Translations under genes and position numbers: made by a program
NCBI RefSeq assembly: GCF_002234675.1
Contig: NC_019864.2
Location: forward strand, 21,082,582 to 21,146,581
Origin: Oryzias latipes
Taxonomy: Eukaryota; Chordata; Actinopteri; Beloniformes; Adrianichthyidae
Direction: 5' to 3'
Length of the DNA: 64,000 nucleotides
Part shown: positions 23,501 through 60,953 of the stretch, in pieces
Position numbering within the stretch: position 1 is the stretch's first letter
Layout: the number at the start of each line of letters is the position of its first letter
Notes under the pieces: generated by a model
Database searches by the model: none
What the model was told of the DNA's origin: nothing
The model's input: the letters and a program-made list of their open reading frames with translations, nothing else

Positions 23501-24611
23501 CTGAAAAGTCCCGCAGCTTCTTGAAGGCTTAATCACATGTCATCAGTCTGACCAATCAGAAGTGTTTAAAGTATTCACTTCCTTGTTCCAATTTAGCTCA
23601 TAACTCACTCAGTTCCAACAAAAATACCAGCTAAAGCTCGTCTTTAGCGGTGTAGCTTTCCACAGAATCCGGTATCAGACTGGAACAAGTGAACAAAACC
23701 ATGAAGCTCAGAGACGCGAGTCTTTCTGCCTTTTTCTGGCAGTTTTAACACTACATCTCCCATGATGCATTGGCTTAAAGGGACGGGACAGCGCCTCAGC
23801 GTACAATGAGTCGTCCTTGTTACACGTCTTGAAACCACAACCAACATACAGTTTGTATGCAGGGCTCCAGACTGCGACCATTTGCTCGCATTTTGCGACC
23901 AAAATTTGAGACTGTGCGACTGAATTTTACATCCAGTCGCACATGCGCGACCAGTAAATTTGCCTCCCCCACCCTCCGTATTTTTTTATTCATTAAACGT
24001 GGAAGCGGCCCGTCAATGATCAATGAAATGAGCAATGAAATCATCAATGAGACGCGAGCCCACACGCACGCAGACAGACACACACACACTCGTGAGACTG
24101 GAGCACACGCGAGCGCACACTCGCATGTCATTGAGTGATGCCTGAGGCGGCCAATGCGTGTGAGAAGAATAGGGAAAGTCACTGCAAGTGGCTAAAATAT
24201 GTGGAGGGGCGGGGCCTAGAGATAATCGAGTGCGCGTTAACGTCTGTGGGAAGGAAACGGAGACAAATCATCACAACCTGATATGTGCGTCTGAGCTATG
24301 AACAGCTAGCGAACTATTGATTCGTTCTTCCGACCTGCGGCTAGTATACCAGTGCCAGAGTGTACAGCAGGGGTCTCAAACTCGCGAAGCAAACCACGGC
24401 TCTCATGCACGGCTGTAACGACAGCACACCGCTCCCGCGGGAGATGGTCAGCTGAGGAGCATAAATGTCCCACACCTACATGCGTGACAGTTAACGGGGC
24501 TCGAACATAAACACGTGTGAGCGACATTATTCTAACGATTTAGTCTTAGACGCACTTAAAACACGTGTGGAAAATGCAACGATAGACGTGTTTGAGATGA
24601 ACCAGCGCCCG

Positions 24612-24648
<37 letters not shown>

Positions 24649-27600
24649 TGAAGGCGAAGCTGCAACAGGAAGTTGGAGTTGTCCTTAACATTCAATTTAA
24701 TAATTATGCCTCTCCCCCTAAGTATGATCTGTGATATTACATCTTTTATAATTATTTCAATGTTTTGTGATGTATGTAGCCTTTTTTAAATCAGTTGGTA
24801 TTTTAAATTATTTTAATTGATCTGTGAACTACAAAAACCCATCAGGACGCATGTCCCATAATGCATTGTTTTGTAGTCTGTAGGGCAGCTTTCAGTCAGT
24901 TCAGTACTAAATTTCCAGCTGTGTTTGGTCAGGTTGGGGTCTTGCTTCCGCCCCTTTCTGGTGATATTTTGGTTTTGATTGACAGGTGATGTTAGAGCAA
25001 AAACAAAAATATGTCTCACACCAGGTGATCTGTGCAGCGTTACGTCCATCTGGGTGATCTCAAATTATTGTGCATCTTGGCTGCACGTATTTGGTGTCGC
25101 AAACATGAATTTCCATCCCCTAATGTTTACATACATTTAAGTATTGTTCTTAACTGTGAAATGACCGAAAGGTTATTACGGTAATCACTTGTTACTAAAA
25201 ACTTTTTTTATTCTAAATTTATGGTATTTTGTTTACTATTTTTTCTGTCATGACAGCGATGCTGCCGTCAGTTTACCTTCTTGTTGCATCTTCAAAAGTG
25301 CAGAATAAAATCTGACACTGAATTTGAAAAAGCAGATTGTAATTTTTGCATCTATAATTAAAGTATTTATTTCCTTTATTTATTTTATTTAGTGTATTTA
25401 TAATACAGTGGAAATTAGAAGATCTGGTTTGCATGTTGATTTACGGTATGCGCCCCTAAATTTTCAGGTTGTGCCCCTAAAATTTTCATTTAGGGGCCAC
25501 AGTGCTCCTAGTGAAAAAAGTTAGTCTGGAGCCCTGGTATGTAACTTAAGTTTTATTACATCTTTTAGAAAAAACATCTGCAACTTTCTGCTTTTTCTGC
25601 CACAATTATCACAAAAATGCACGTCAGATTGCCCGGGGGGGGGGGGGGGGGGGGGCTGTAGATCAAAACAGACTATGAGTTTCTGCTTTTTTTTTTTTTT
25701 TGGGATGCTGGTGTGCCGCGACATTTTTGTCAAGGTTAAAGTGTGCCGTGGCTCAAAAAAGGTTGAAAAACACTGCATTAGACAATTAAAATAGTACTTC
25801 AGACATTTTTAAGGAAATGTTGGACTACTGACAGGAATGAACCTGTGAAGTGCTCAATCCTTTTTACATGAATGACCCCGGTGTTGCAGTGTGGCACGCA
25901 GGTGATCGTAGTGTGGATCTGCTGAGATGTTATGGAAGCCGTTTGTCCCGACAGTCTCCAGGTATTTCCTGATCGACTTCTGACAGGTGACTTCCTTTGC
26001 CAATTTTTCACAAGAATGCCACGACCTTCAAACCAGTCCTGCACTAGAAGTGACATAAACGTCCTGCATTCATAAACACAGCAGAACAACGCCAGGAAAT
26101 GAAACAGCTCCTCAACCAAAGTGGAAATAAAATTAGATTCTGTGGCTCTGCTCTTTCTTTAGATCGTGAAGAAAGTGTCTATGGGAGCTCGGACAGGCAC
26201 CCATAAATTAAAAGAATTATTATTATTAAAAGACACAGACTGCTGAGCAAAATTAATATTTTCCATGTACTTTCAGTTTGTACTCAAAAATGCTACGTAC
26301 ACACCAAGCATTTGACGCCTGTTCTTAAATGCACGTTTAATTCCTTTCTTCAACAAAAACTTCACCAACGTATGCAAATAAATCTAGAGGTACTTAAGAC
26401 TTACTTTGAAATAGGGCTGCACGATATGTGGGGGAAAAAAATTCGCAATTTGCAATATTAGTGATCGATATTTGGATGGCGATATAACTTGCGATACATG
26501 AACAAAAAGCAAAAAAAACGAAATACATTATTTCAATTTCACTGCTGCAGTTTAATTTAAATAAGAGTCAACATAACTTAAATTACACTCTAAATGACCC
26601 TCATCTAGGAGGCAAACATTAACATAAAAGGAGTCCATCAGACTGGTCAAATAAATGGATTTATTTGATTTGTTGAATACTTCAAGCTGCCATTAGGTTG
26701 TTTTAGCACATTTAACATCACAATTTATCGCAATTTTCGCCATCTTTTACGCTATGCGTATTGCACAGCTTAAAATCGCGATAACAATTAATTTGCTATT
26801 TATTGTGCAGTCCTGCTTTGAAATATGAAGTTTATACTTGTTTATTTGTCAAACATATTTTCCTGTTCTCAAACATCAGTTTAAAACGTGAATTCTTTTT
26901 TTTGCCTAAATCTCAATTGAATATTCTTATAATCTTTTATGAAGATAAACTTTGAAGGGAAACAGATGCCCAAACAATGGCCTCCTCCAATGACTATAGG
27001 TAGTAGAATCTGTTTCTGTTTTAACCATGATTTATGGTTTATGGAGTTTATATCTCAGACGCAAAAATATGCACAAGTCGCACTTTGGGGAGAAATGTAT
27101 CTAAAAACATATGGGAACAAGAATGGACATAATAGTTATAGAATTTTTTTTTTAAATCAAAGGACTTCAAACTTTTCATCTAAGTTGGTTCAACTGGCCA
27201 GAAAGAAAAAAAATAAGTGAGCCAAAATTCTTTGATTTTAAAGAAATTTTGGTGCCAGAGGTTAAAGAAAAACAATTAGGATGGTTCGAGACGACAAACT
27301 AGCAATGGTCTATGACAGTGTTTCCCAACCCTGGTCCTCGGGGCATGTTTTCCATGTTGCCCTGGTCTGCACACCTGATTCAGCTCATCATCAGGCTCTG
27401 CAGAAGCCTGACGATGACGGCCATGAAAGGCAGGTGTGTTTGAGCAAGGCTGGATGGAAAAAATGCAGTACAGTGTGCCTCCAGGACCAAGGTTGGGAAA
27501 CACTGGTCCACATTACATATTTCTATCAGAATCTCTACTGTTTCTACATCAACATGGGTGGGTTTATATTCAGAGCAACCAACATGGTACCATGTATCAG

Positions 27601-30600
27601 CAACCATTAAAGCCGCCTTTCTTCCTGCTTTGAACTTTAGCAGGTCACTCTGACCGTGTGGTCATGCTTAAATGCTTTGCTTATTTGGACTGATATTTAC
27701 ACAACCAGCAGTTTGAATCTGTGGTTATTATGAAACCGAGCTAACTTTGTTTTAGGTGCAAACAAGGAGTCAAAATAAAGCAACAAATATAAGAAACTGC
27801 TGTGAAGTTAACTACAAAAAAATAATGCTCCAGTCTTCCGCAAACAGTTTTTTGGACTGAAATAATTTAATACATAAAAAAAAAACTGAGTTAAAACTGA
27901 TGTAATTTTGTCTCACAAAGGCTTATTCTTATAAACAATATGTTTTAAATTATATATTTTTATTTCCTTTTTAAAACAGAAAAATGCATTTTTTTATTTC
28001 ATTTCAATGTGATCTCACTGATGTATGAATGGTTGTTTCTTATAAAATGTCCACATCTTTAAATTTCCCCATAAAGAATTAAAGCCACACGTTAAAAAAC
28101 AAAGTATTTGAGACTGCAAGTAGAAAGTCAAAGAAAATCCGTTTTACTGTCACTGCACGGTAGAAAGAAAGCAACTTCAGCTTCTCTACGTACCAGTGTG
28201 GATTTCTACGTCTAAAAACAAACACTGTCACTCCAACTTTCACCTGGGTGTCCCATGAGGATTATTTTCAACCACAAACATCACAGCTTGAAGTTATAGA
28301 AGACAATCTCAAGATGCTTTGAAACTGGAGGAAATGTTGACACCCGAATGTGGTCAGAATAGCTCACGACAGCTGTGTGTGTGTGTGTGATGGTTACAAA
28401 AGCTCCTCTTTCTCCAACACTTCAATAAAGATTCTTTTCAAAAAGGTCTTACCTGAGAGTGAAAATTGGCCATGGTCGTCGTCTCAATGTCCTTCTTTCC
28501 AAGCACCTCCATCTTCACTGGGGCGTTGGGGAAGTTGTATGAAAAGTAATCCAGGAAGTCTGGAAGGTAGGATGCTGCTCCGTGGATGATTCCCATCACA
28601 AAGCACGCAGCCTGGGACTCGTCCTCGCTGAACGACAAGCTCACAAACTCCTCCGCGAAGCGCTCCAGCTCAGACGGAGACAAACAGGCGAGCTGGTCGT
28701 AGTAGGCGTGCACCACAGACGCCCCTCCGTTAGCCTGCTGCTCAACGTGGATTAGACGGCCGAACTCCAGCTCAGGCAGGACCGCCGTCGGGGTGCAGTG
28801 GAGCGGAGAGCTGTACTCCAGCTGATCTCTAACCATGGAGTGGATGGAACTGGAGGTAGAGGCAGTAACAGCAGGATCCTGCAGGTGTTGATGCGACACG
28901 CTGCTGCTGCCGATTAGACTGCCGCTGTTGTTCCCGTTGATTCGGCTAAACAGCTCCGGCAGGCCCAGTGACACCCCTGAACACACAGTCTGGCACGAGC
29001 GGTGGTACATTTTGGGCCGGCTGTGGCGCTCTCTGAATCGCTCCCCGTCTTTGTGCTTCTTTTTCTTCTTCTTCTTGAGTTTTTTCAGTAGCAGGTCTTC
29101 CTCTGAAACAGCTTTGAGCTTCTCCTTATCTGTCACACAGAAAAAGAGTTGTTTACAGCAAAACACAGCGTTGATTACCTTTTGATGGCTTCCTGAAAAC
29201 CTTTTGATTTCACAAGAATTCATCTGCAACATTACAATTTTTGTTATTACCCAAAAAATTGTCTGCTTGAAGTCCCACTTCAATCATGTTTTGATCTATT
29301 GTAAAATCCTTCCCAGTGATCTTTTAATCATGATTCTGCCATTTTTAGCTAAAATAACATAAATAAATAATAAAAAGACACTTTCTAGGCCATAGATTGT
29401 GTCTGAATTCCTCACTACACAGTTCACTTTATAGTGCGTTCGCCTTTGTTGTTTTGTGTGCTGATCGATTTCACAATTCCAATTCAAGTGCCTTAGAAAT
29501 CTCCCAGACGTCTGTGCAAAAAACCAGTGTGCATCGATGCTCACTAGATGGGGGACTATAGACCACAATGCACTGCGTTTGGACAATTGTAAAAAACAAT
29601 CTGTAACTTTGTACATAACAACTACAAGCTTTTTCTAACGGCATTTTGTCATCTGATTTAATACGATTTGAATAAAGAAAATACTCAGGAACATAATTTT
29701 AAGCTTAATTTTCTTTTCATATCCCTTATCATGAATATAACGCCACAAGAACATGTTAAAAAACAATTTCATTGTAGTGGGTCTTTAAAAGCAATTACCA
29801 CAAAGTTACATAAATTATTTCTTACATAAGTTATTTCTGTTTGTTTTGTGATATTTAAAAAAAAGTTATATAAAAACATTTCTAGCTTTTTTATTTTTTA
29901 AATAAATTAGTCTATAATCCTTTTTCTTACCTTTCTGAGGGAAAAGCACTTCTCCGTTTTCTCTGGTAATGTCGTGCACAGGTGGTAATAAGCTGTTGTT
30001 TTTCCATTCGTTCTTCTTTTCCTTCTTCCTCTGTCTGTCTTTCTCCTTCACGTGAGGATCTGAAAGGAGCAGCATGCAGAGCAGAGTGAGCTTCATTTCA
30101 TCCATAACTGATGAACAAACATTTCCACGTGTGTATTTCCCACCATATGGGCCCATTAAAACACTGAGGCCTGTCAAAGCGTACCCCCCCCCCCCCCCCC
30201 CCGACACACACACAAAAACTCAAATATGTTGAAATAAATCCTTTAAATGGCAGCGTTGTTGTTTTAACAGCCCACATTAGTGTAGAACGGTGAAGTGAGC
30301 GGGAAGCAGGCTGTCCTACCTCTGGGTGGCATTTTAACGTCGCCGTTCTCCGTCTTTGTATGGCAGCTAGCGGGGCTGACTTTCTCTACGGCGGCTGTGG
30401 AGCTCCGCCGAGCGTCGCCGCTTTTCTCTTTCTCTTTCGGTCGTTTCTCTTTAGCCTTTTTCACTTTGGGAGGCGAGGCGAGAAAGTTGCTGATTTTGAA
30501 GATATTCCGCACCGGGGTAACTGGCATCCCAGCCGCGGTGGAGTGGCTGGTCTTGGCCGGGCCGAAACTCCATTTCGCTGGGCTTCCACAACTCTGCTTC

Positions 30601-30815
30601 CCGTTGCCGTTGTGTTTTTCCCCTGCGCAGACGTCTCCGTTGAGTTTCTTGTGCTTCAGGCCTTTCTCCTCCACGCGGATCTTCTTAGGGGGCGGCGGGA
30701 AAATGTCGCTGGAAGACTGAGGACGGCTTTCGGGCGGCCGTTTGGCTGTCAGGGGTTTAGGGGAATTTGTTTTGCTGTTCGCTGCGAAATGCATGGAGTC
30801 TACGGACTCGGCCAT
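17520..30815 (-). CDS. rsbn1l: RSBN1L, JmjC-type histone H4K20 demethylase family protein with long charged tail
   Basis: RSBN1/RSBN1L proteins are vertebrate relatives of worm DPY-21, a nuclear JmjC demethylase acting on H4K20me2. Coding exons, minus strand: 30320-30815, 29931-30059, 28453-29129, 21575-21712, 21350-21492, 20853-21020, 20579-20690, 17520-19094. The total is 3,438 nt (1,145 residues), all in phase. The N-terminus is basic and low-complexity, with a [20 protein letters not shown] run. The core is strongly conserved: [65 protein letters not shown], and [20 protein letters not shown] followed by [20 protein letters not shown]. An HAD at about 557-559 and the His of VVHQF (about 660) are candidate iron ligands (my inference). 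After about residue 672 comes a roughly 470-residue Lys/Glu-rich tail, much longer than I recall for the mammalian protein (846 in total). The exon 7 acceptor is a CAGCAG tandem, which could add or drop one serine. Confidence 0.94.
21770..22261. repeat. 5'-truncated copy of the ~500-bp TTAA-flanked element
   Basis: The right end is intact (GATGATCGGAGTGGGACT then TTAA at 22262-22265). Internal sequence (GGGGCTGTAAGCTAGTGGGA, CATCCACTT) matches the copy at 34520-35029. The left third is missing or diverged, so the start is approximate. It lies just inside the intron upstream of rsbn1l exon 4. Confidence 0.6.
22325..22690. repeat. Fragment related to the sequence at 24366-25120
   Basis: It shares GCGTGACAG, GACGCACTT, CATCGTGGCTGCA-type and AACATGAATTTCCATC blocks, in the same order, with the innermost element of the nest to its right. 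Boundaries and superfamily are unclear. Confidence 0.4.
24366..25120. mobile_element. Probable third-level insertion with a CAGGGGTCTCAAACTC start
   Basis: A hAT-like start, CAGGGGTCTCAAACTC, occurs inside the second element. The following sequence resembles the separate fragment at 22325-22690. I could not locate a matching right end, so the end coordinate is approximate. Confidence 0.4.
24615..24646. repeat. 32-base G homopolymer
   Basis: An uninterrupted run of G lies within the innermost nested element. It could form a G-quadruplex and its length is a likely assembly uncertainty. Confidence 0.9.
25635..25655. repeat. 21-base G homopolymer
   Basis: A second long G run lies inside the outer hAT element, about 1 kb from the first. 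A 19-base C run (the same on the other strand) is at 30184-30202. Confidence 0.9.
26412..26815 (+). mobile_element. hAT-type MITE with perfect 8-bp target duplication
   Basis: This 404-bp element has ends TAGGGCTGCACGATA and TATTGTGCAGTCCTG, which are imperfect inverted repeats. It is flanked by the identical 8-mer CTTTGAAA (26404-26411, 26816-26823). The CGATAT/ATCGC-rich interior is of a kind common in fish genomes. Confidence 0.88.
27316..27505 (+). mobile_element. hAT-like MITE, older copy
   Basis: This 190-bp element has inverted ends CAGTGTTTCCCAACCCTGG and AAGGTTGGGAAACACTG. The flanking 8-mers GTCTATGA and GTCCACAT are only partly alike, so the target duplication has decayed or the ends shifted. 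Confidence 0.75.
29281..29784. repeat. Copy of the ~500-bp TTAA-flanked element (rsbn1l intron 2)
   Basis: The left end is TTGA then AGTCCCACTTCAATCATG. The right end is GTAGTGGGTCT then TTAA at 29785-29788. Ends and interior match the copy at 10539-11094. Confidence 0.7.
30184..30202. repeat. 19-base C homopolymer beside a CA-rich tract
   Basis: A poly-C run is followed by ACACACACAC, in rsbn1l intron 1 about 120 bases downstream of the exon 1 donor. Confidence 0.9.
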
Positions 30816-30930
30816 CTTGGAAGTTTCTATTTTTTACGGTCAGACGTAGCTGCGCGAGAGACAGGCCGGGGGCGGGGCTTCGGGGCTTACGTCAGACGCA
30901 GAGGCGGGGGGAAGGGGCAATAAACAAGAC
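30320..30930 (-). promoter_or_regulatory. CpG-rich rsbn1l promoter and first exon
   Basis: CpG density rises sharply over exon 1 and about 100 bases upstream of the ATG at 30815. A GC-box-like GGGGGCGGGGCTT lies near 30868 and CGCGCGAG near 30850, with no TATA box. This is typical of a broadly expressed gene. Confidence 0.65.
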
Positions 30931-36592: not shown

Positions 36593-38618
36593 ACGTGCGT
36601 TCAAGAACTTGCATTCAGCGCCTTCTTGATCAAGTAAGAGGTGAGGCTGATCGCTTAGCTAACCCCACATGACTACTTATTGCAAAAAAGTAATTAATCA
36701 GTCTTTTTTAGAAATAAAGCGGCAGCATCCTGTTTAAAGTAATACTGTTTAACCACTAGAACATTTTAAATTAATTCTTGGAAAGATGTTTTCTTTTCTA
36801 TTTTGCTATCTGTTTTAACTTTAATCACACAAGACTTTGTTCAAATATTCACTAGAACTATTTTGACATTTGTTTAAAAAATGTCGACATCTTTCCTGGG
36901 GTTTCAGACCTCAGTTTGACCTCCAGTGTTCGTGCCATTTCCCAACAGTAACATGAACTAAGATAACAAAAAAATAGCTGTATATAAACTTTTCTCCCAG
37001 GCATTTAATATTTTTATATTTCAAAGTGCAAGACAGTTATCCGAAAATCCTCTTGAGCCTAATGTTCTGCTCCTTAAAGTTTACAGAAAATTAAGCCTGG
37101 GGTCAAATCGTTTGCATACCCCATGGACATATGGAGAATTTCACGGCCTCAGCCTGGTAGCACTTTAGTCAAAACCTTTTGATCTTTTTCTCTGAATCAA
37201 AATGTCAAACTGAAGCATTTATACTTGTGATGTGCTTATACAGTGCAGATGCCTGCAAAAGGTCTACAGAGGGCCTTTTTCTTCCATGTTTAGCTTTGTT
37301 TTCCAGCTGCTCTACAAAACAAATGGTTTCTTTTGTCATTTTAAAGAGAACAGCTGAGAAATCTCTCAGCCCTCAAAAGACCAAAACACTTAGGTCAAGT
37401 TTCAGTTAAAAAACAATAATATAGCTAAAGTGATCTTTAAAAGCAAATGGAAAAACATCAGAAAAAAAAAACGAACTCTGGCACTGCTCGTTTGTTCCAT
37501 CCATATGTTCGAGCTGGAAACAACCCAGGAGACTGGTTGGCTCAGGTGTTTTGTCTTAGCCAAAAATCAAGTTCTCAGGAAGAGGGTGTTCATGGTTAGA
37601 AGTGCTACTCCACCCTGATTACCTCACCAGTTCCAGAAACTTGTAGGGGATCAGTGCTGTCTAAATAAAGCCAATTTTACATGAAATATTTATCTATCTC
37701 TGGCACCACAAGTGAATTCAACTTGGATAAATCTGACTTTCCTGGCTTTGTCAACACAGAAGCGGAACCCCCTTATCTGGTTTACCATAAAAACTAATGA
37801 TGTACCTGTGAATTTGACTAACAGCCTCTTGGTTCTGGCCCAGCAGCCAGTATTTTTGCTCAATGTGCATTTTTTGACCTGTAACATCTGTCGCTCACGT
37901 GTTTGTGGACGCACCAACAGGAAACTTGGGATGCGCCTGCCAGAGCAACTGTGTGTGTTCCACATGCAAGGCAGTGACATTTATCATTACAGCATGGAGT
38001 GAGAATGTCAGACAAATGGTCTTCATTAAGTAATGTGATTCAAATGGAGTTAAATGTAAGAACAGGATTAGAAGAAGGTGCGTGTTTTCCAAAATGTGTA
38101 TTTTAGGACTTTTTCTATCCACTGATGTTAATCCTGTTCATAATGTGAAATAAAAACACGTGTCCACTTCCTTACACTGCTTTATCTCCAAGATGACTTC
38201 TGTAGGAGGCTGTGCACTGCCAAAACAAGTCCCTACAAATAAGTCAAAAGTTCTTAAATAAAAATAAAAATCTTCAATTAAGCAAATTCTTACCAAGAAT
38301 TAAGAAAATTCTATACTAGGACATATTTTCTTAGACTTTCTTGCTATTGAGAAACCCTATTGTTAATATTATTTTTCTTGCAAGACAAGTCACATTTTAT
38401 TTAAACAAGTGTCTTTTTACGTAAGACATAGTTGTTGCAGTGATCTAGTAACACAGTAGTCCTCTTTATGTTGTGCTCTCTTTTTCACCTGCTTCCCTCT
38501 AACATAGTCTCAGAAATTTTGTTTTCACTTCTCAGTTTCTTCAGGTCCTCCTCCTTCCTTCTCACCCTCCCACCTCAACTCCTCTCACTGTCACTGGGCT
38601 TTACAACTGAGTTGGGTG

Positions 38619-38625
38619 TATATAC
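38619..38625 (+). promoter_or_regulatory. TATA box of fgl2
   Basis: TATATAC lies 48 bases before the proposed ATG (38667), so transcription would begin near 38650. This argues against any upstream in-frame start. Confidence 0.65.
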
Positions 38626-38666
38626 AGTCCCTCCTTTCTCTTGCCTCATTCTTTCCTCTGAAGACA

Positions 38667-41600
38667 ATGAAGTTAACAGCACCATGTGTGTTTGGGAGCC
38701 TACTGGCCTTTTTGAGTCTATCTTGGATCAAAGCAGATGAGGAGGTCGTCCTGAAGGGTCAAGGATTTGGGCCCTGTGTCGCAACTTTACGACCTGAGAG
38801 AGCGTGCTCGCCTGGACAGCATGACGCCACGTGCCCTTACCTGCTCCATCTGCCACCACTGACGGTTCATTTGCCACAACAGTTCCAAGAGCTGGAGAAG
38901 ATCATGCAGGACCTGCAGAAACTAAAGGAGAGCGTGGACGAACTGAGAGAGATGTGTGCGAACTGTACAGTAAGCCAAACTGGGGGAGAGTGTGGGAGAC
39001 AAAGTGGTGAACATGAGAAGATGACTGCAGGTAAGGGAACACGTGAGGATGAGAGGACCTGGGTGCGTGTGATACTTGAGAAAAATGATGGAGATTTCAG
39101 AGAAGACTGTGAAAAAGACAAGAAAACAAAAAAGACATATGAGGATAACACAGACGACTGGTTGGTTCAGGAAGGGATGGAAGATAAAAAATTAGAAGCA
39201 GACAAAACTAAAAACAAAAAAGAAATAGCAGAAAAGGAAACAAAAGAAATTATGTTAAAAAACAACAAAAAAACAAAGACAGGAAAAGCTAAACCTTTTG
39301 ATGAGACACAAATGTCCACTGCAGACCCAAATGGGAGTGCAGCTGATTTGACGACAGAAAAAGTAGCTGAGAAAAATCACTCAGAGCCAGAAAGAAATAA
39401 GGAAGATTCAACCAAAGAGGATACAAGAATATATCCTACAGAATCAAGGCAGAGTGAAGAAGAGAAATACATACAGAAATACACAAAAACTAAGGAAACT
39501 GATGGAATATTTGTATCTGCGAACCAGGAATATGGGGAAGAGACAAAGAAGACCTTGGGGGATGGAGTGAAAGTGAACAGAAATAATGAGAAACCAGAAC
39601 AGACTGAGCTCACAGAAAACGAGAGGACTATAAAAGAAATGGGCTCGGATGAAAAAAGCAGGGCAATTGGGAAAGAAATCAAAACAGAGAGAGTGAACGG
39701 CGACGGGGATGGAGAATTGTCCTCCAGCAAAACAACTAAAAGAGCAGACTTTGTTTCTATTAGTCCAACTCCCCAATTCAAAATGAGAACAGCTTCAAGG
39801 GTGGACTCGATAGACTCAAGGAAAGTAAGAACTTTTACATCATCTCTTCCATTGCCTTCTTTTCCCATTTCCCCATTAAGCTCAATCACAGATGTCAGTC
39901 AAAGCACAGCAGCTGGTCGTGGACCAACCCAAAGTACAGGCCCTTACACAGCTGGTGTTCCAGGGCCCCGAAGCTTTGATGCAGATTTGAGTACAGATAC
40001 CTTAGCAACAACCACAGTGGGTGGTCCAGGACTGCAGACCGTACCTAACTCAGCATCCACAAGGAAACTTGAGGGACAACTCCAGGGCACCTCTACTACA
40101 ACTCCAACAACAATCCATCAGACACCATACATGACTACATCACCAAGAGTTGAAGATGACAGCCACTGGAAATCTAAGACTACTGGCAGGCGACCTCAGC
40201 CTGAACAAGATATGCACGCAGATAAAAAGCCTCCACTTGGAACTAAGCCTGAAGCAAAGAAAAAACTAAAAAATCCCCTAAATAAACCTGGCCAAACTCT
40301 ATTTCCTGTCAAAAAGAGTCCACCCCATCAAAAGGAAAAACCTTCACAACAAAAACCCAAAGCAAACAAAGCTAAACCTGACAGAGACTCAATACAGCCC
40401 AAAAATGTCAAACCTGTTCAAAAACGTTTTCCTGGTATTTCAAAACCAAATACCAAACCAAACCAAAAGAAAAATTCATTAGATACACACAAACAGGGTC
40501 AAACCCCTGACCAAGATGAAATCACTTCTCAGTCAATAACATTTCCTTTAAAATCACCACCTGCTGTCCTGAAACCTACAACTCACAGGCCTCAGATTGT
40601 AAACACAACTTTGTCTGATGAGCTTTCTTCAAAAACTGGTGGTTTAACGCCAAAACAAGAGGAAAATCATCCAATTAAATCAAATATATTATCTAATGAA
40701 AATCCTCTGCCTGGGTCTAATTCCAATTCTGAATCAAAATATAAAGAAAATGTATCTGAACAAGATCATATAACACCTGAACAGGATGTTGAATCAGACC
40801 TGAAGATCCCAACAGGTCATCTAAACCAAGAACCTAAACATGAGCTGGAATCTAATTCCAATCAAAAGGCTACAGTAAGACCTGATGAAAAGCATAACAT
40901 TGAGATAATTAAAGAATTTAAGGAAAACAAATTTTTAGAGACAAATCCAGGACCCAACCAAAATAACACGTGGCCCACTAAAAAGCCTACACTCAGCAGA
41001 AACTTCTCGAAAATGAACCAGACTTCTAAACTTGATCAAGCACCAAAGCAAAATCCAAAATTTAAAAAAACAGGGACAGGCTTGAATATAAACCCAAATA
41101 AAAAACCCAAACCAGGACAACCACCACAAAATAACCTAAAACCTAAAGCTCCCAGACCTGGACTAAAGCCTCATCCAGGATTTACACCTGTCCAGGACAA
41201 ATTCCACAAAGCACAGTCCAACAGAACCACAAAACCAAGGCCCCCTTATCGATTTAGACCTCCAACCAGACCTTCATTGGAACCACCAGCAGAAACAATT
41301 CAAAAGCCAAATCCAGAAGTTCAACCACAGCCAGAGTTAACAATGAAATCAGGTGCAAATCCAACTCAATCCAGCAGGAATTATGAAACAATGCAACCTA
41401 CTTTTGGTTTTGTAAAAAGGATAACAGAAGATACTCATACTCCACTGGACAAAAGTTCCAATGTCAGTTTCAAGAAAACCACCACTGAACAACCAAATAA
41501 TCCAATATATTCAAGAGAAAGATTTGATGACAAGCTTTTGCTTGAGCCTAAATCCAACCTATACTCAACATCTGAAGAAGAGAAAAGACATCAACTGGTT

Positions 41601-44600
41601 ACATCAACAGCTGATTGGGACATGAAACCAACACAGAAGACCTCAACAGTTCATCAAAACCCTAAGAAAATCAAAGAGCTGGAATCTGCAGATGCTCCAA
41701 CACCCACACCAAAACATTTGGAAGAAATAAAGGACGTTTCTGGTGATAATCCTCTTCATGAACCAAAGTCCAAAGAAGAATCAAAAACCAAACTGACTAC
41801 AACCTCTGTTCAAACTACTGCATGGCCCACTAAAAGGCCTACAATCAGCAGAAACTTCTCGAAAATGAACCAGACTTCTAAACTTGATCAAGCACCAAAG
41901 CAAAATCCAAAATTTAAAAAACCAGGGACAGGCTTGAATATAAACCCAAATAAAAAACCCAAACTGGGACAACCATCACAAACTAATCCAAAACTTAAAG
42001 CTCCCAGACCTGGACTAAAGCCTCATCCAGGATATACTCCTTTTTGGGACAAAATCAACAAAGCACAGTCCAACAGAACCACAAAACCAAGGCCCCCTTA
42101 TCGATTTAGACCTCCAACCAGACTTACATTGGAACCACCAGCAGAAACAATTCATAAACCAAATCCAGAAGTTCAACCACAGCCAAAGTTAACAATGAAA
42201 TCAGTTCCAAATCCAACTCAATCCAGCAGGAATTATGGAACTATGCAACCTACTTTTGGTTTTGTAAAAGAGATAACAGAAGATACTCATACTCCAATGG
42301 ACAAAAGTTCCAATGTCAGTTTCAAGAAAACCACCACTGAACAACCAAATAATCCAATATATTCAAGAGAAAGATTTGATGACAAGCTTTTGCTTGAGCC
42401 TAAATCCAACCTATTCTCAACATCTGAAGAAGAGAAAAGACATCAACTGGTGACATCAACAGCTGATTGGGACATGAAACCAACACAGAAGACCTCAACA
42501 GTTCATCAAAACCCTAAGAAAATCAAAGAGTTGGAATCTGCAGATGCTCCAACACCCACACCAAAACATTTGGAAGAAATAAAGGACGTTTCTGGTGATA
42601 ATCCTCTTCATGAACCAAAGTCCAAAGAAGAATCAAAAACCAAACTGACTACAACCTCTGTTCCAACTACTGCATGGCCCACTAAAAGGCCTACACTCAG
42701 CAGAAACTTCTCGAAAATGAACCAGACTTCTAAACTTGATCAAGCACCAAAGCAAAATCCAAAATTTAAAAAACCTGGGACAGGCTTGAATATAAACCCA
42801 AATAAAAAACCCAAACCAGGACAACCATCACAAACTAATCCAAAACTTAAAGCTCCCAGACCTGGACTAAAGCCTCATCCAGGATTTACACCTGTCCAGG
42901 ACAAATTCCACAAAGCACAGTCCAACAGAACCACAAAACCAAGGCCCCCTTATCGATTTAGACCTCCAACCAGACCTACATTGGAACCACCAGCAGAAAC
43001 AATTCAAAAGCCAAATCCAGAAGTTCAACCACAGCCAGAGTTAACAATGAAATCAGTTCCAAATCCAACTCAATCCAGCAGGAATTATGAAACAATGCAA
43101 CCTACTTTTGGTTTTGTAAAAAGGATAACAGAAGATACTCATACTCCAATGGACAAAAGTTCCAATGTCAGTTTCAAGAAAACCACCACTGAACAACCAA
43201 ATAATCCAATATATTCAGGAGAAAGATTTGATGACAAGCTTTTGCTTGAGCCTAAATCCAACCTATACTCAACATCTGAAGAAGAGAAAAGACATCAACT
43301 GGTGACATCAACAGCTGATTGGGACATGAAACCAACACAGAAGACCTCAACAGTTCATCAAAACCCTAAGAAAATCAAAGAGTTGGAATCTGCAGATGCT
43401 CCAACACCCACACCAAAACATTTGGAAGAAATAAAGGACGTTTCTGGTGATAATCCTCTACATGAAACAAAGTCCAAAGACGAATCAAAAACCAAACTGA
43501 CTACAACCTCTGTTCAAACTACTGCATGGCCCACTAAAAGGCCTACACTTAGCAGAAACTTCTCTAAAATGAACCAGACTTCTAAACTTGATCAAGCACC
43601 AAAGCAAAATCCAAAATTTAAAAAACCAGGGACAGGCTTGAATATAAACCCAAATAAAAAACCCAAACCAGGACAACCATCACAAACTAATCCAAAACTT
43701 AAAGCTCCCAGACCTGGCCTAAAGCCTCTTCCAGGATTTACTGCTTTTTGGGACAAAATCAACAAAGCACAGTCCAACAGAACATCACAACAAAGGCCTC
43801 TATATCGATTCAGACCTTCAACCAGACCAACATTGGAACCGCCAGCGGAAACCAACAAAAGGGTAAACCCAGAAGTTCAACCAAAGCCAAATGAGGCAAA
43901 CAAAACAACTCCAACTCATATTAGCTGGACCTCTTCTGATGCCTTGCAAAATACCAATACCAATATTATCTCAAGCACTATTTCAGGATCCACACCACCT
44001 AGTGGAGTACCTAAATTTGACTCCACCTCAAAAATAGCTGTCAGTGTGGAGAAAAGCACACTTGCAACCACAGTCCCTTACTCCAGTTCCAAAACTACCT
44101 TAACGATCAGCCCTGACTTCAGGTCAGTGACCACTGCCACCTCTGGCTTTGACCCCCAGACCTCTGCTGACAGCACACTAGAGTTGCGTGTGAAGATAAA
44201 CCAGGTGGCGGCTTTTCCTTTTAACAGCCAGAGTCCAAACAGGAGGCCAGCAGACGAGCATCCAAGGCAGATCCCCAGAGGCACAGACAGAGACAAGACC
44301 TACAGACAACCAGATAGATTTCCGTTTCCAGGCAAGTGATCATTTTTACTTCATCTGTGCGATTGAACACTGCAATATCCTTTCACAAATCAAATCCTCC
44401 TTTTATTAACCACATCCTATAGCAAACTCACTGTAACATCTTTTTGTATGATCCCCTTAAAACTGAAAACTTTTTCTCACACCACAATTGATTGAAGAAA
44501 AATATGTTTACATGGGTTTTTGACTCAATTCTAGAAAAATAATATAAAATAATTGCATCAAAAAGATGTGGATTAACCTGACCACATGTTATTTTCTTTA

Positions 44601-46527
44601 GACACCCACACATAAATAATTACAGTCTGTGGTCTGAGAACATCTTTGCATAAGACACTGTGACTGTTATTTGTCAGAGAAGGAATCTGCATGTGTGTGA
44701 AATGTGTGGCGCTGTGTGATTATTATTAGAGATGTTGAAACCACATCAGTTCAGGGACCAGCAGCTCCAGTACATCCCTCTGTTGAGGAATTTAAATCAA
44801 ACAGTGAAAACATCTGAGTGGAATAAATGAATTGGAACTATCAGATGTCAAACGACAACTTTTAATTTGGCAGTAGCAGGAAGAAAGGTTTATCACAAGC
44901 GAATTCATGTTCATTTTTATAAAATCTGTCATATATTACACAATAAAAGGTTTAAGTGTAAAACACATACGTTTTTAGTTATTTTTATTCAGGTGCATTC
45001 ACTGTTTCCCTTTCAATAGCCTATTGTTGGGTTTGTTTGTTTCTTTTAACCGTAAAATCCACTAAATCCAATAATTGACAAAAAATTCATTTTCTTTTGA
45101 ATTAATTTGTTTTTCAAACCATTTTCTGAAATCCACAAAAAATTCAATATAATTTATTTTAATGGGCTATAGGTTGCATCAATTATGATATGTTGGCTGA
45201 TTAATTAAGTTTTTGGTCATGACAATGTCAGTTTAAGATGCAAAAACATTCATGGCTGTTTAATAAAAAAAGCACATTTCCCCTCTGTCCCAAGTTTGAT
45301 GCACATATTTTTAACATTGTATATTGTAATGAATTAATTATTAACACTTTTTGCATTATTTTAATACACCAAGTTGTAATAAAAAAAAAGAATAACAATG
45401 ACTGAATATTTTCACCATAAGATTTGGAAAATAAGCAAAACCTTTCCTGCCAAATGGAAGGAGCTGTTTTGAAATGACCTCTACTGCCCCTAGTGGAATC
45501 ATAATTTACTACAGGGTAGAACATATTGGAGCAAGTTTAAAACAATGGGTTTTTAAGGAAAGTTTGGATCTTGGTAAAATCTAGGGGTCTCAGAACTGTG
45601 TGTATCAAATATGATATGAATGGTTATATAGGCTTAAAGTGCTGGAGTATTCTCTGAAAATCCATCCTCAAAAGTCGTGTTTTATATTGCTAGAATTCTG
45701 TGGCCTGTTGACCTCATCAATCATCTTTTATACACCCCATCTGCAAACTTATAGTTTAAACTGTGAGGAATTTAAAGCCAGGCCTTCACGGCGGACTTGA
45801 TTTGAGTTTGTTTTGTCTTTCTTCAGCAAGGAGAGACTGCGCAGAACTCCTCATGTTAGGGAACAAACACAGTGGAATTTACCGTGTGTCCCCCAACCAC
45901 CGCCACGCAAGCTTCAATGTTTTCTGTGACATGGAGCAGGAAGGTGGAGGATGGACTGTTCTGCAGCGTCGAATGGACGGGAGCGTGAGCTTCAACCGCA
46001 CCTGGGCGGAGTACCGGTCCGGCTTTGGAGAGCTGAGTGGAGAGTTCTGGCTGGGCAACAATATGATCCATCTGCTGACCCATGACAGGGACATGGTGCT
46101 TCGGGTGGAGCTGGAGGACTTCAATGGTGTGAGGGAGCATGCGCAGTACGCGCACTTCAGCGTTGCTGGTGAGCAGCTGCAGTACAGACTGACGGTGGGC
46201 GGTTACACAGGCACCGCAGGTGATGCTCTGCTCTTCAGCAGAATGTACAACCACAACAATAAGGCCTTCACCACCCCGGATAAGGATAACGACCGCTACC
46301 CCTCCGGGAATTGTGGAGCCTACTATAGCTCCGGCTGGTGGTTTGATGCCTGTATGGCTGCAAACCTCAACGGGAGATATTATGCGGGACCTTATAAAGG
46401 ATTGCGTGATGGGATTTTCTGGGGCACATGGCCCAACATATCCAGAGAGTATTACCCCACTAATGACAGGCATTCTTTTAAAAATGTTAGAATGATGATC
46501 AGACCTGTGGGTTTTCTGCCACCTTAA
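38667..46527 (+). CDS. fgl2: FGL2 (fibroleukin) ortholog with a giant repeat-bearing central region
   Basis: FGL2 is a secreted or membrane-associated fibrinogen-related protein of immune and endothelial cells, known as a prothrombinase and immune regulator. Two coding exons, 38667-44331 and 45827-46527, total 6,366 nt and encode 2,121 residues. The two-exon layout matches mammalian FGL2 (about 440 residues). Residues 1-22 are a signal peptide. Then come CPYLLHLPPLTVHLPQQF and a short coiled coil ending CANC, clearly the FGL2 N-terminus. Residues from about 125 to 1888 are new: a Lys/Glu-rich part, a Pro/Thr/Lys-rich part, then a 284-residue tandem array (769 to about 1740). Exon 2 is a complete fibrinogen-like domain: RRDCAELL, GGGWTVLQRRMDGS, FWLGNNMIHLLT, then TPDKDNDRYPSGNCG, YYSSGWWFDACMAANLNG and FWGTWP. 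The intron uses a GC donor (CCAG|GCAAGT). The open frame through 5.6 kb, with a repeat period divisible by three, argues that it is translated. Confidence 0.92.
40971..43880 (+). repeat. 852-bp in-frame tandem repeat array inside fgl2 exon 1
   Basis: Units start at 40971, 41823, 42675 and 43527 with an exact 852-bp (284-codon) period. The fourth is partial and diverges after about 350 bp. Each unit opens WPTKKPTLSRNFSKMNQTSK or a close variant and carries sequons NFS, NQT, NRT and NVS. Units 1 and 3 share VQDKFHKA where units 2 and 4 have FWDKINKA, suggesting duplication of a two-unit block. Differences between full units are few, so the array is young or homogenised. Confidence 0.95.
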
Positions 46528-46718: not shown

Positions 46719-46724
46719 AATAAA
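46719..46724 (+). promoter_or_regulatory. fgl2 polyadenylation signal
   Basis: AATAAA lies about 190 bases after the fgl2 stop, followed by AT-rich sequence. It is the first good signal downstream. Confidence 0.6.
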
Positions 46725-49159: not shown

Positions 49160-49760
49160 TCTTCTTTCTCTTTCGGCTTTTCCCATCAGGGGTCGCCACA
49201 GCGAATCATCGTTTTCCACCTCACTCTATCATGGGCATCTTCTACCCTAACATTAGCCAACTTCATGTCCCCTGTTAAGACATCCATAAATCTCCTCTTT
49301 GGCCATCCTCTTGCCCTCCTGCCAGGCAGCTCCATCTCCAACATCCTTCTACCAATATATCCACTATCCCTCCTCTGAACATGTCCAAACCCTCTCAGTC
49401 TGGCTTCTCTGACTTTGTCGCTAACACAGGCAACATGAGCCGTCCCTCTGATGTACTCGTTCCTTATCCTGTCTAACCTGGTCACTCCTAAGGAGAACCT
49501 CAACATCTTCATCTCCGCTACCTCCATCTCAGCCTCTTGTCTCTGTCTCACTGCTACCGTCTCTAACCCGCAGAGCTGGTCTCACCACTGTCTTGTACAC
49601 CTTTCCTTTGAGTCTTGCTGACACTCTTCTGTCACACAATACTCCTGACACTTTCCTCCAACCGCTCCAACCTGCCTGCACTCGCCTCTTCACCTCCTTT
49701 CCACACTCCCCATCACACTGAACTGTTGACCCCAAGTACTTAAACTCCTGCACTTTCTTC
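49160..49760 (-). mobile_element. 5'-truncated non-LTR retrotransposon (LINE) with perfect 17-bp target duplication
   Basis: Minus-strand frames give the C-terminal end of a LINE reverse-transcriptase polyprotein: EFKYLGSTVQ, VKRRVQAGWSGWRKVSGVL, KGKVYKTVVRPAL, then AEMEVAEMKMLRFSLGVTRL, GHVQRRDSGYIGRRML and RRFMDVLTGDMK. ACTTCTGTATTATGAAT flanks both sides exactly (49143-49159, 49761-49777), so the 601-bp insertion is precisely bounded. A small internal deletion and frame change lie near 49550-49570. Clade (RTE-like or other) is not assigned. The identical duplications imply a fairly recent insertion. Confidence 0.9.
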
Positions 49761-49982
49761 ACTTCTGTATTATGAATAACTTCTTGAATTAATATTTGAA
49801 CAGGAAATTCACACTTTTATTATGAAAAGCTTCACCGGAATTAGTTACGGTTGCTTGATGGGGTCAGAATTGTGGCTGCAATGTTGAATAAGGAGGTTTC
49901 AGGACATGAGTTTGTGTTAAATCAGAAGCTGGGTCAGAGTTAGTTCTATCAGCAGTTTAAGGAAAGCTGGTTAGCAGACAAA

Positions 49983-52900
49983 ATGTTTTGGACATTAGTT
50001 GCTAGTCGAGGATCCGGCGGAGGTGTCCTCCTCCGGTCCCTTTGCCCCGGGGTTGTCACAGCTTCCCGGTGTACGCAGCCGCAGTCACGGTCATTCTCCG
50101 GCACCGTCCCCACCACCCAAAGCGAGGCGAAGCCGTGTCCGGTGCGGCGGAGGTCTATCTCCGTCAGCCCGTTCGTCAACGTGCGGACCCATCTTGACTG
50201 CAGCATCTCCATCCGTCCTCTCGACACTCACGCCTTCCCCGGGGCTGACCGAGCCTTTATCACCGTCCACGGCCCGGACTCCGAGCAGCAGGAGGTGGGC
50301 TTGGACCACCTGCACGTCCACTGTGACGGGGAGGGCAAAGAGTTAGTGATCACCTCAGAGAAGATCAACACCAAAGCGATAGTTGAGATGGACGCACCGA
50401 TCAAAAGCAGTGAGTGCGAAGCATCTGTGCAAAGCAGTTTTCCATTTTCTGTCCAACAATTCTTTGTTTTTTGTCAGATCTCTTCATCACAGCTCGAGGA
50501 CAGGGCAACGTGCAAATCAAACAGATGGAGTGTGATATCTGCAGAGTGGAAACAGAAAAGGGCCACTGTTTGTTGCACTCTATTAGGGTGAGTGTTGAAA
50601 GTATTCAACCTCAGCAAAAAACAAAATAAATAAAAATAAAATAAAGCTGAATTCAGATAGATCAGGGGTCTGAGACATTTAACACACAAAAAAACCCCAG
50701 CAAGAGACGCAAATTTCAGACAAATTGCCTTTATTTATGTTTTTGTGGCCATCAAGCCATTTTTTTAAAATAAAATGTAGCTTAATTGCAAAAATTGAAT
50801 CATTACCATATCATATTTTTCTTTATAGAACTTTAAAAAAAAACTTTTGACAGCAGAACATTCATGCTCCTCTCAAAATGAAATACACCAAGTGTCCAAA
50901 AGACCCTCCTGCTGCGACAGATTTACCTGAATAAAAGAGGAAGAAAATCAAGTCAAATATGCCATTTTCTATCATTTTGACTTTTGGAAAATTCATCATT
51001 TGGCTCGTTTTATAATTGAATATAAACATGAAAACACTGTAAAATCCTTTTGTCAATGCATTTCTGTTCTTTTGGAACTTCACCTCTGAACAGACACTGT
51101 TGTGCAGCAGATGATAAAAAATGTGCTTTAAGTTTTTTCTAATAGTCAAGAGTTCTGACTGTAGATTAACCCTCATGATGTCCCCATTATGAAAGAGCCA
51201 CATGTGGCTCAAGAGCCTTGGGTTGCAGAGTCATGTCTTAGATGATCGTGAAGTCATGGTCCAGCCATGCAGACGTCTTTCATTAACATTTGGGAAAGAG
51301 CGGGAGCTCAATGATTTCTGTACAAGTCTAGTTTATTATTCAGCAGTCAGTTGTCAGTGGTAATATAACACAGTGGAAGTCATAAGAAATTCAAGCATGG
51401 ATTAGTAGACTATGTAGAGGGAGGTCAGCAGATGTGGCATTGTTCACAAAGGTCAACACCTAAAGGCTTTCAAACTTTATTTGATCTCCAGATTAGACCA
51501 AGAACAAAGCAGAGAGTTTATGGTACTTAATCTGTCCACATTGTGCCAAATGCAATATCGGTGGAGGATGTATCATGGTGTTGTTTTTTTTATCTGGAGC
51601 TGGGCTTGGCCTTTTAAAAACTCTGAATGTTTCAGCATTAAGGTTCTATCCCTATAGCATTTTTGAATCAATTAAATTTGATTCCCAAGTTTACAATTCG
51701 ATCAAATATAGAATTTATTAGTCACATTTATGTCTTAAACCAGTTTTGCTTGGCCACAAAAAAACCCTGATTCTTTATAATTGATTTAAACTGGAAAAAA
51801 GTCAAAATGTTATCAATAAAAAGTGGAATTCCTAAATAATGGAAAGAAATAAAAAGGGGGATTGTTTCAAAAGAAACACAATTAATGACATACTTTGACA
51901 TTTTGCCCAATTCCAGACACCCAATGTTTTTGGGACCTCTCCTAAATAATCTATATTCATTAGGATTAAATTGAATGAAGACTTTAAGTCCGGCCTTCTC
52001 ATCCAAGATCAGATTCTGATCTCACAAAGTTGCTTCCAGAAGAACAGTGGAACACTCATAAATACAAACCCATGGAAATTCTGCCTAGAAGAATTGAAGC
52101 TGTTATAGCTCCAAAGGTTGTCTCCATGGATTTGCTAATCATATTAAATGTGTCTTTTTCTTTAAGTTAGGTCTCTGTAAATGTTAGAAATACTGGATCA
52201 CCAATTAGTGCTGCCTATTTCTAAACATCTGTGATATTCACATTAGAAAACTTTTAAAAGCGTATAAAAACTGGTCGGCAGCTCACATCGATGCACCATT
52301 TTCTTTATCCTTGTTTCATTTGTCGTCTTTTGTTTTTTTCTTCCATTTCAGGGTCATGAGGTGAAAGTTCAGTCCCACGGAGGAAACGTTACAGGCACAA
52401 ACACAATCCATGGAAACGTGGACATCAGAACAGAAGGCGGTGGTGTAAGTAAAGCGGCTTTGAGGTGATGCTCTCAACGGTCACTAGGGGGCGCCAGCAG
52501 CCTGCAGCATCAATGCTCTCTGACAGAATAGATTCATGTTAAAAACCAAGTTAAAACAAGTACATTGGAATTTTCTTTTAGCAGCTCCAATGTCAGGTCA
52601 GGGAATTACAGAAAAACAACAGCTAGCAAATTAGATAACAAAATTCAACAATCTGTTTTTTTGTAGGAGGTGAACATCAAGAAACTCCAGGGCACAAAGA
52701 TGAATGTTTGCACAGAGTCTGGGTCTCTAAAGGTGAAAGCCATCTATTCTGAGTCCAGCTGCATGTCTTCCTCATCTGGGAAGATTGAATTTGGGCACGC
52801 ACACGGTAAACAAACGCACACGGTAAACAAACGGCTGCATCACTTTCTCCTATGCATCCTCATACTGCAATGTAGAATTGGTGATTCACCCAAATGGCAG

Positions 52901-58723: not shown

Positions 58724-60953
58724 ATGCGCCTCACCCACTTTTTCGTGTTCACCTCTTTATTCTTCCTCCTGCTCCCATCAATCCAGATGAAAAGGGCAGG
58801 AAAAGGCAAAGGTCTTAAAAGAGCGAGGCACAAGCTCACGCAAGACAGGTGGGGATTTATTTTAACGCATATTTATGTTTCAGATGTTGCTGTGACTTCA
58901 ATGACAAACTGGAGTTTTTCTGTGTTTAAAGAGGCAGGGTTCGAGGTGCACGGCGCTACAGCAGATCAGGGCTTTCTGGGCTCGTGTCACCCAGCTGTTC
59001 AGAACTGAAAGAATCCGGAATGATTTTTATGGATTGTCAAGAACGACAACTCACTTTCATCCCCCCTGCAAACTCCTGGTTCAGGAAGCCCAGGCATCTC
59101 CTGTTAGCTCTGAATCAGATCAAAATCCTCCAGGATGGAGCTTTTCTTGGATATGACAGTTTAATCAGTTTGGACCTACAGCAAAATCAAATCTTCCAAG
59201 TGGAGGAAGGGGCTTTTCAGGGTTTGACACGGCTTAAAACCCTTCTGTTGCAGCACAACCGTCTGACAACTCTCAGCGACGAGGCTTTAATCTCCATGCC
59301 CAATCTTCGAGATCTCCGTTTAAATGGTAATCCCTGGAAATGTCTCTGTCCATTGGAAAGTCTCATCCGTACTCTTCAAGTCCCAAGTAACCGTAATCTA
59401 GGAAACAATGCCAGGTAAGTACTTCCATTAGCCTAACATGCTATTGTTGAGACCTCTGAATAATTATTGCCTCTAAACATGTCTCCTTGAAGGTGTGCAG
59501 AACCCACCTGGCTAAAAAACAGAAAGCTGAAGACAGTCGATCCTGAGCTGCTTTGCAAAGATGTGGAGGCCATCAGTCACCGAACCGGCAACAACACAAG
59601 TACTTTCGAACCCATTCCTTTACGGGGCAAAGCGGACACTGCCTCAGTTTGCCACACTTACCTGTTCCCCCACATGAGGATGGACTGCAGCAAAAGAGGC
59701 AAGTTCAACAACGGCTTTCTTTGGCCAAAACAAGTTTGATTACCCTGCCCTGAGCCCCCAAGCCGTCATTCCTGCCACAGTTTGTGACTGTGACTGTCAG
59801 AGCATGGGTGATTCATTATTTCTACTGCATGACTTGAATTACTGAAATTCCATTTATCAGAGCGTTTTATGTTGAGACATCCACTTTCATGAGCCAGGCC
59901 ACATCTGGCTTGGCATATGTTTCGATTTACAGACATTGAGCCAGCTCAACTTTAACCATGACTTTGGACTATTTTGAGTTTTAACCAGCAGCTTCTTTCC
60001 ATTAAGGTCTGACTGAGGTGCCCTCAGGTATTCCTGACGATGTCGTACAGGTGGACTTATCCCACAATTCAATCCGTCGACTCCGACTGAAAGACTTCCA
60101 GGGTGCAAGTGGCCTCAGAATCCTGAACCTCAGCAGTAACAGCATGGAGCACATTGATCCCGGTGGGTGTTATGGGTTTCAATCCAATTGACTGCTTTCA
60201 GTGTAAAAAAAGAAAATGGAGAAGAAGAAAAAAATCATATTTTTTCATAATTATTAACGAATGCACTTAATTGTGTCCCAACAATGATTGTGAGAGGCAT
60301 TGATAAGAGGACTCTCTCATCAGGCTTAAAGGAAGTCAGCCCACACAGCCATATTCCAGTTCAATTACTGGACAGGGTATCTGGTGTAAACAGCAGCACA
60401 AATGTCTGCATGTAATGCCCACCTAGTGTTTTCCTGCTTTTTCTTTCCTAGGTTCCTTGTTTGGGCTCTTGCACCTTCAAGAACTTGATTTGTCAGACAA
60501 CAATTTGCATTTCCTTCAGTACGGGGTCCTTGAAGACCTCTACTTCCTATCACGGCTTAAACTGGGAGGAAACCCCTGGGTGTGCAACTACAGGTGAGTT
60601 CATTTCCTTTGATGCTTAAAACTTTTTTTTAACTGTTATTAAAAGCTCCTCCCCCTCCCCCCCCCAGCATCCATTACATGGTGTACTGGCTGCGTCTGCA
60701 CCCTGCAGTGAAGCACTCGGGCCTGTGGTGTCACTCCCCTTCTGAGTTTGCTGGAGAAAGAGTGGAGGAATATGTGCATTCCTACAACAGAGAGTGCCCG
60801 AAGGACAGGCAGCCCAGCAGAACTGACCCGGACATGCTGGACTCTGTGAACTGGGGCACACCAATGGAGCTGCAGGGAGAGGTGGAGGAGGAGGAGCTGG
60901 AGCCCAGCAACTTGAGAGCGCCACAGAAATACGAAGTTTTCAGACTGAGATGA
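58724..60953 (+). CDS. lrrc17: LRRC17, secreted leucine-rich-repeat protein
   Basis: LRRC17 is a secreted LRR protein described in mammals as a regulator of osteoclast formation. Coding exons: 58724-58848, 58965-59414, 59493-59698, 60007-60162, 60452-60593, 60668-60953. The total is 1,365 nt (454 residues plus stop; human 441). Residues 1-22 form a signal peptide, followed by a basic linker. Two LRR blocks follow, each capped by an LRRCT. The first has MDCQERQL, SLDLQQNQI, LLLQHNRL, NGNPWKCLCPLESLI and NRNLGNNARC. The second has LTEVPSGIPDDVVQVDLSHN, LNLSSNSMEHIDP, GVLEDLYFL, GGNPWVCNYSIHYMVYWL and ECPKD. Intron 3 uses a GC donor (AGAG|GCAAGT). Exon 2 has a CAGCAG tandem acceptor. The last acceptor follows a poly-C tract. 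The Glu-rich tail ends in VFRLR. Confidence 0.95.

Follow-up and report, generated by a model that had tools for sequence, protein, structure and literature searches.

The 64,000-nucleotide stretch of medaka (Oryzias latipes) DNA analyzed here (contig NC_019864.2, positions 21,082,582 to 21,146,581 of the forward strand; called the window below) contains a predicted two-exon gene of the FGL2 type, most likely FGL2 itself judging from its sequence. Its first exon holds a very long in-frame segment that includes an 852-bp tandem repeat, and two donor sites of the same phase, a GT site in front of this segment and a GC site at its end, face one acceptor. We see an even chance that medaka makes a giant FGL2 and that the choice between these two donors decides whether a basic, largely disordered spacer bearing N-X-S/T sequons is retained. 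An earlier note on this DNA had described a giant coding exon between FGL2-type ends, and the open frame, the PF00147 domain and the exact exon coordinates bear this out. The tandem array, the GC donor and the internal in-phase GT donor are additions to that description. The gene consists of the following parts:

38619-38624, plus strand: TATATA, 43-48 bases 5' of the ATG, read from the sequence, function presumed
38667-39030, plus strand: FGL2-type core of exon 1, 121 codons and one base, with a hydrophobic start, CPY..LPPLT..LPQQF, a coiled coil and C97-x-x-C100
39031-44331, plus strand: central in-frame segment, 5,301 bases or 1,767 codons, which splicing at the internal donor would remove
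39031-39746, plus strand: Lys/Glu-rich part (residues 122-360), by composition
43887-44331, plus strand: Ser/Thr/Pro-rich tail of exon 1, by composition
45827-46527, plus strand: exon 2, encoding the fibrinogen-related domain and the stop (PF00147; phmmer matches to fibrinogen-domain PDB chains)
46719-46724, plus strand: AATAAA, candidate poly(A) signal, with another at 46776

The plus-strand frame 38508-44339 is open, with no stop before the TGA at 44337-44339. From the ATG at 38667 to 44331 none of the 1,888 codons is a stop, and the remaining five frames contain 61, 80, 87, 113 and 149. For 39031-44331 a mean of 82 in-frame stops and a minimum of 58 were expected from 300 first-order Markov sequences with its dinucleotide make-up. 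As openness alone could mean mere stop avoidance, codon periodicity was measured as a chi-square of codon-position composition and compared with 300 shuffles containing no stops. The chi-square was 132 in the non-repeat part (39033-40946) and 168 in the repeats, both with a shuffle maximum of 37, and 26.7 in the tail (shuffle maximum 23.3). By this measure the central segment looks coding. Joined in phase 1, both exons would encode 2,121 amino acids, 4.8 times the 439 residues stated for human FGL2 in PMC5356913.

The exon 2 product matches PF00147 over residues 2-227 (E 1.7e-85), and a tblastn search of the window for a second fibrinogen domain, with E up to 1, returned exon 2 only. In a phmmer search of PDB with this domain FGL1 was the best match and no FGL2 occurred among the best 60 of 68 matches. 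No Pfam family was found above cut-off in exon 1; matches to MC_hydratase, DUF3106 and SNAP-25 lay under the curated cut-offs and were taken as chance. The segment CPYLLHLPPLTVHLPQQF, read from the sequence, is present in the N-terminal core, whose letters we take to resemble those of human FGL2. The two-exon structure of FGL2, also claimed in the earlier note, is upheld by the phase-matched exons predicted at 38667-44331 and 45827-46527 and by an intron position that agrees with human FGL2, because 233 residues follow the junction here and 235 are left for human exon 2, the first 204 of 439 residues being assigned to exon I in PMC11141035.

The splice sites concerned are:

39028-39036, plus strand: internal GT donor CAG/GTAAGG, exon end 39030, phase 1, score 7.43 of 8.63
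44329-44337, plus strand: terminal GC donor CAG/GCAAGT, exon end 44331, phase 1, its last base being the first base of the TGA at 44337-44339
45805-45826, plus strand: 3' splice site AGTTTGTTTTGTCTTTCTTCAG, with the best pyrimidine tract of the two filter-passing AG sites in 38.9-45.9 kb

The donor score (maximum 8.63) omits the two bases after the cut, so that a GC site bears no penalty for its C. By this score the donor at 44331 outranks every other GT or GC site in 38.6-44.4 kb, and no other GC site on either strand of the 64 kb scores as high. The GT donor at 39030 is the second-best donor in 38.6-44.4 kb, and both top donors are in phase 1. An overlapping GT exon end, CAGGCAA/GTGATC, was discarded as it is in phase 2 and would not join exon 2 in frame. 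Splicing from 39030 to 45827 is predicted to give a 354-aa FGL2 that retains the coil, the cysteines C97 and C100 and the fibrinogen domain. The two same-phase donors suggest that the gene could make either this small form or one about six times larger. Because the GT donor at 39030 is strong and in phase, removal of most of exon 1 as an intron, which the earlier note had named as the finding that would speak against its claim, is a live possibility on sequence grounds, and the giant form is perhaps one of two isoforms, or not made. GC donors are described as closer to consensus and enriched in alternatively spliced genes (PMC2490688). For human coding genes, passages of PMC7242645 report alternative 5' splice events at 31.6% of GC-AG versus 10.1% of GT-AG introns and an enrichment of GC-AG sites in first introns. 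For human FGL2 itself, an unspliced form and three splice variants are described (PMC5356913).

Within the central segment an 852-bp unit, exactly 284 codons long, forms a tandem array of 3.45 copies (40947-43886, plus strand), preceded by an older relative:

40116-40946, plus strand: old diverged copy ('copy 0'), about 277 codons, start extrapolated
40947-41798, plus strand: repeat copy 1, 284 codons
41799-42650, plus strand: repeat copy 2, 284-codon unit
42651-43502, plus strand: repeat copy 3, 284-codon unit
43503-43886, plus strand: repeat copy 4, partial and more diverged, 384 nt compared

Copies 1-3 are 94.5-96.9% identical, with differences in 53 of 852 columns, and copy 4 (384 nt) is 85.7-91.4% identical to them. 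Variants common to several copies, as seen in their translations, are mosaic, some occurring in copies 1 and 3 and others in 2 and 4, which points to unequal exchange or conversion between copies. The array was found by a general repeat search; TRF, with a longest period of 500, reported no array in exon 1. Copy 0 was called from a DNA match, because its likeness at the protein level is modest when shuffles keep the local composition (1 to 36 of 400 such shuffles reach the score in 18 tests). The match aligns 40664-40853 to unit positions 549-741 in equal codon phase, with scores of 54, 52 and 44 against the three copies, each reached by none of 1000 codon shuffles. Two control stretches upstream of it score 26-27. 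Neither residues 122-480 nor residues 1742-1888 resemble the repeat unit, scoring 52 and 35 where shuffles average 53 and 44. An Arg/Pro-rich stretch, TTKPRPPYRFRPPTR, occurs in copies 1-3 and is reminiscent of proline-rich antimicrobial peptides.

The share of synonymous changes between copies was determined for codons with one-base differences only, leaving out codons with two or three differences, for all six copy pairs, which are not independent. Copy 4 shows a synonymous excess against copies 2 and 3 (omega about 0.29; p 0.010 and 0.00075) and a borderline one against copy 1 (p 0.051). Nei-Gojobori dN/dS over all codons is 0.74, 0.66 and 0.77 among copies 1-3 and 0.44, 0.33 and 0.33 in the comparisons with copy 4. 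These values would fit a frame that is kept and exact residues that are little constrained in the recent copies, as expected of a spacer.

By composition, exon 1 downstream of the core is divided into a Lys/Glu-rich part (residues 122-360), a Ser/Thr/Pro-rich stretch (361-480; 33% Ser+Thr), copy 0 (481-760), the array (761-1740) and a second Ser/Thr/Pro-rich stretch (1741-1888; 30% Ser+Thr). The array contains 13% Lys, 15% Pro and 19% Ser+Thr and has an isoelectric point (pI) of 9.9 per unit. The term mucin-like, applied in the earlier note to the whole central exon, suits the two short stretches 361-480 and 1741-1888 and does not suit the Lys/Pro-rich array. The many N-X-S/T sites ascribed to the extra part are there, as 21 of the 24 sequons fall in residues 122-1888. 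In a charge-hydropathy analysis the Lys/Glu-rich part (-0.30), copy 0 (-0.24) and the array (-0.26) lie clearly on the disordered side, the tail (-0.01) at the boundary and residues 361-480 (+0.11), the coil (+0.01) and the fibrinogen domain (+0.05) on the other side. With signal cleavage after residue 23, set by eye and determining the mature masses and pI, the predicted giant mature protein has 2,098 aa, 236 kDa and a pI of 9.57, and the compact one 331 aa, 37.6 kDa and a pI of 6.24. From a weak AlphaFold2 single-sequence model of residues 24-333 (mean predicted local distance difference test score, pLDDT, 53; 186 of 310 residues with pLDDT below 50) the helices only were used, namely a confident one at 71-98 (pLDDT blocks 91, 96 and 78) and a moderate one at 126-201.

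In the explanation we propose, the first exon of FGL2 would have been enlarged by an in-frame A-rich coding segment including the 852-bp repeat, and the repeats would have multiplied by unequal exchange or conversion. As the donors GT 39030 and GC 44331, both of the same phase, face the one acceptor at 45827, a spacer of exactly 1,767 codons could be kept or skipped with both ends unchanged. The full form would be a secreted or membrane-anchored protein, joined by its coiled coil, with the fibrinogen domain atop a long basic N-glycosylatable spacer. The gene would then produce two proteins, a soluble FGL2 that is compact and mildly acidic and a giant basic one that, from its charge alone, may stay bound to polyanionic surfaces or matrix.

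Several results weigh against such use of both donors. GC-AG introns account for about 0.8% of coding-gene splice sites, and their donors and acceptors are described as weaker than those of GT-AG introns (PMC7242645). GT sites as good as the one at 39030 are expected by chance 0.095 times in exon 1 shuffles and 0.31 times per 5.66 kb from the density in the window, a third of them in phase 1. The helix predicted with moderate confidence at residues 126-201 begins just past this donor, as if the donor cut into a stalk; from the position of this helix the internal donor may be the newer of the two. Copies 1-3 among themselves show no departure from neutrality (p 0.64 for 1-2, 0.70 for 1-3 and 0.37 for 2-3), and copy 0 shows no purifying signal against the unit over 63 codons (pS 0.35-0.41, pN 0.42).

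The chance expectation for the GT site (0.1-0.3) and the moderate-confidence helix just 3' of it also fit a gene in which the 2,121-aa protein is made constitutively via the GC donor and the GT at 39030 is an unused chance match. We regard this as a serious possibility, though not the one we would back. In its favor, the GC donor matches the consensus throughout apart from its C, and coding signatures extend across the central segment. On the other hand, a near-consensus GT donor lying 5' of the GC donor would need to be suppressed, and it is in phase, 22 residues past C100 of an FGL2-type core. The converse, that only the donor at 39030 is real and the long frame is either a relic of coding sequence or an intron that is open without being translated, would agree with a strong GT donor giving a complete 354-aa FGL2 and with the purifying signal not seen among copies 1-3 or for copy 0. 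It appears unlikely to us in view of the codon periodicity with 0 stops in 1,767 codons, the synonymous excess of copy 4 and the GC donor, which is top-scoring, matches in phase and ends the exon 6 bases short of the first stop in the frame.

Misjoined repeat copies or a frame created by polishing would make the structure an artefact of the assembly. Long repeats that are 94.5-96.9% alike (copies 1-3) are hard to assemble, and the number of copies may be in error or differ between individuals. However, the differing columns in copies 1-3 and the 9-14% divergence of copy 4 indicate that this is not one copy repeated by error, the 64-kb window contains no runs of N and the frame is held in the non-repeat parts too, so that we rate an artefact as highly improbable.

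Returning to the inclusion or skipping of the spacer by two donors, a further step can be offered as a tentative idea that we ourselves hold doubtful. FGL2 is described as both a membrane-bound coagulant and a soluble immune suppressor, both arising from one compact protein (PMC5356913). In medaka the choice between GT and GC might yield two proteins of opposite function. One would be a small immunoregulator in solution, the other a 236-kDa glycosylated, cationic tether attaching the same fibrinogen domain to matrix, cell surfaces or microbes. The repeat number, altered by unequal exchange, would set the reach of the tether and perhaps vary within the species. After injury, zebrafish macrophages turn on fgl2a as a target of IL-10 (PMC9489698), so a donor switch would best be looked for under injury or infection; zebrafish fgl2a is also listed among macrophage markers (PMC11505477). 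Apart from this idea, a lineage in which the two FGL2 ends persist around a 1,767-residue basic spacer that splicing could precisely remove would be a natural test of which FGL2 functions need a free and which a tethered fibrinogen domain. The gene is also a clear example of a very long coding segment kept open beside a predicted GC-AG intron.

Other frames were noted in the window:

15247-15648, plus strand: single-exon frame that we take to be TMEM60-like (PF10269, E 3.7e-10)
17520-30833, minus strand: frames that we take to resemble RSBN1L exons, three pieces without Pfam match, 17523-19187 being very Lys/Glu-rich
49186-49581, minus strand: open frame of 131 aa, presumably like the end of a long interspersed nuclear element (LINE)-type reverse transcriptase open reading frame; no Pfam match
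49944-50588, plus strand: first-exon-like frame, presumably like FAM185A; no Pfam match
58930-59415, plus strand: leucine-rich-repeat exon (LRR_8, E 7.2e-25)

RSBN1L and TMEM60 lie near human FGL2. The putative neighbours here would fit the FGL2 region, with a family match supporting the TMEM60-like frame only.

In pattern searches with the fibrinogen domain no relatives were found in viral and prokaryotic contig collections, nor with the first 333 residues in the viral one; the repeats were not searched there. In the open-licence literature on FGL2 and fish, no title or abstract among the matches listed describes a giant FGL2. Zebrafish fgl2a is an FGL2 gene already named in a fish. With mammalian FGL2 the medaka gene shares two exons (here predicted) with a single intron just before the fibrinogen domain, and the order of N-terminal hydrophobic segment, coiled coil and C-terminal fibrinogen domain. 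The cysteine pair C97/C100 corresponds to 94/97 of human FGL2 (PMC5356913). A second pair, 184/187, is reported for the mammalian FGL2 oligomer and was not treated as defining; exon 1 contains no counterpart of it, with only C109 and C148 after C100. Unlike mammalian FGL2, the medaka gene has 1,767 codons with 852-bp repeats between the core and exon 2, and a GC donor plus an internal donor potentially giving 354 aa.

A long disordered glycosylatable tandem-repeat spacer is also typical of mucins and lubricin-type (PRG4) stalk proteins. In contrast to these, the medaka array is Lys-rich, has 19% Ser+Thr and a pI of 9.9 per unit, and lacks the dense Ser/Thr with Pro over repeats of a mucin-type Pro/Thr/Ser (PTS) domain. 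The repeat region of the fibrinogen alpha-chain likewise consists of disordered tandem repeats in a fibrinogen-family protein, whereas the medaka repeats are located between the coil and the fibrinogen domain, in a two-exon gene.

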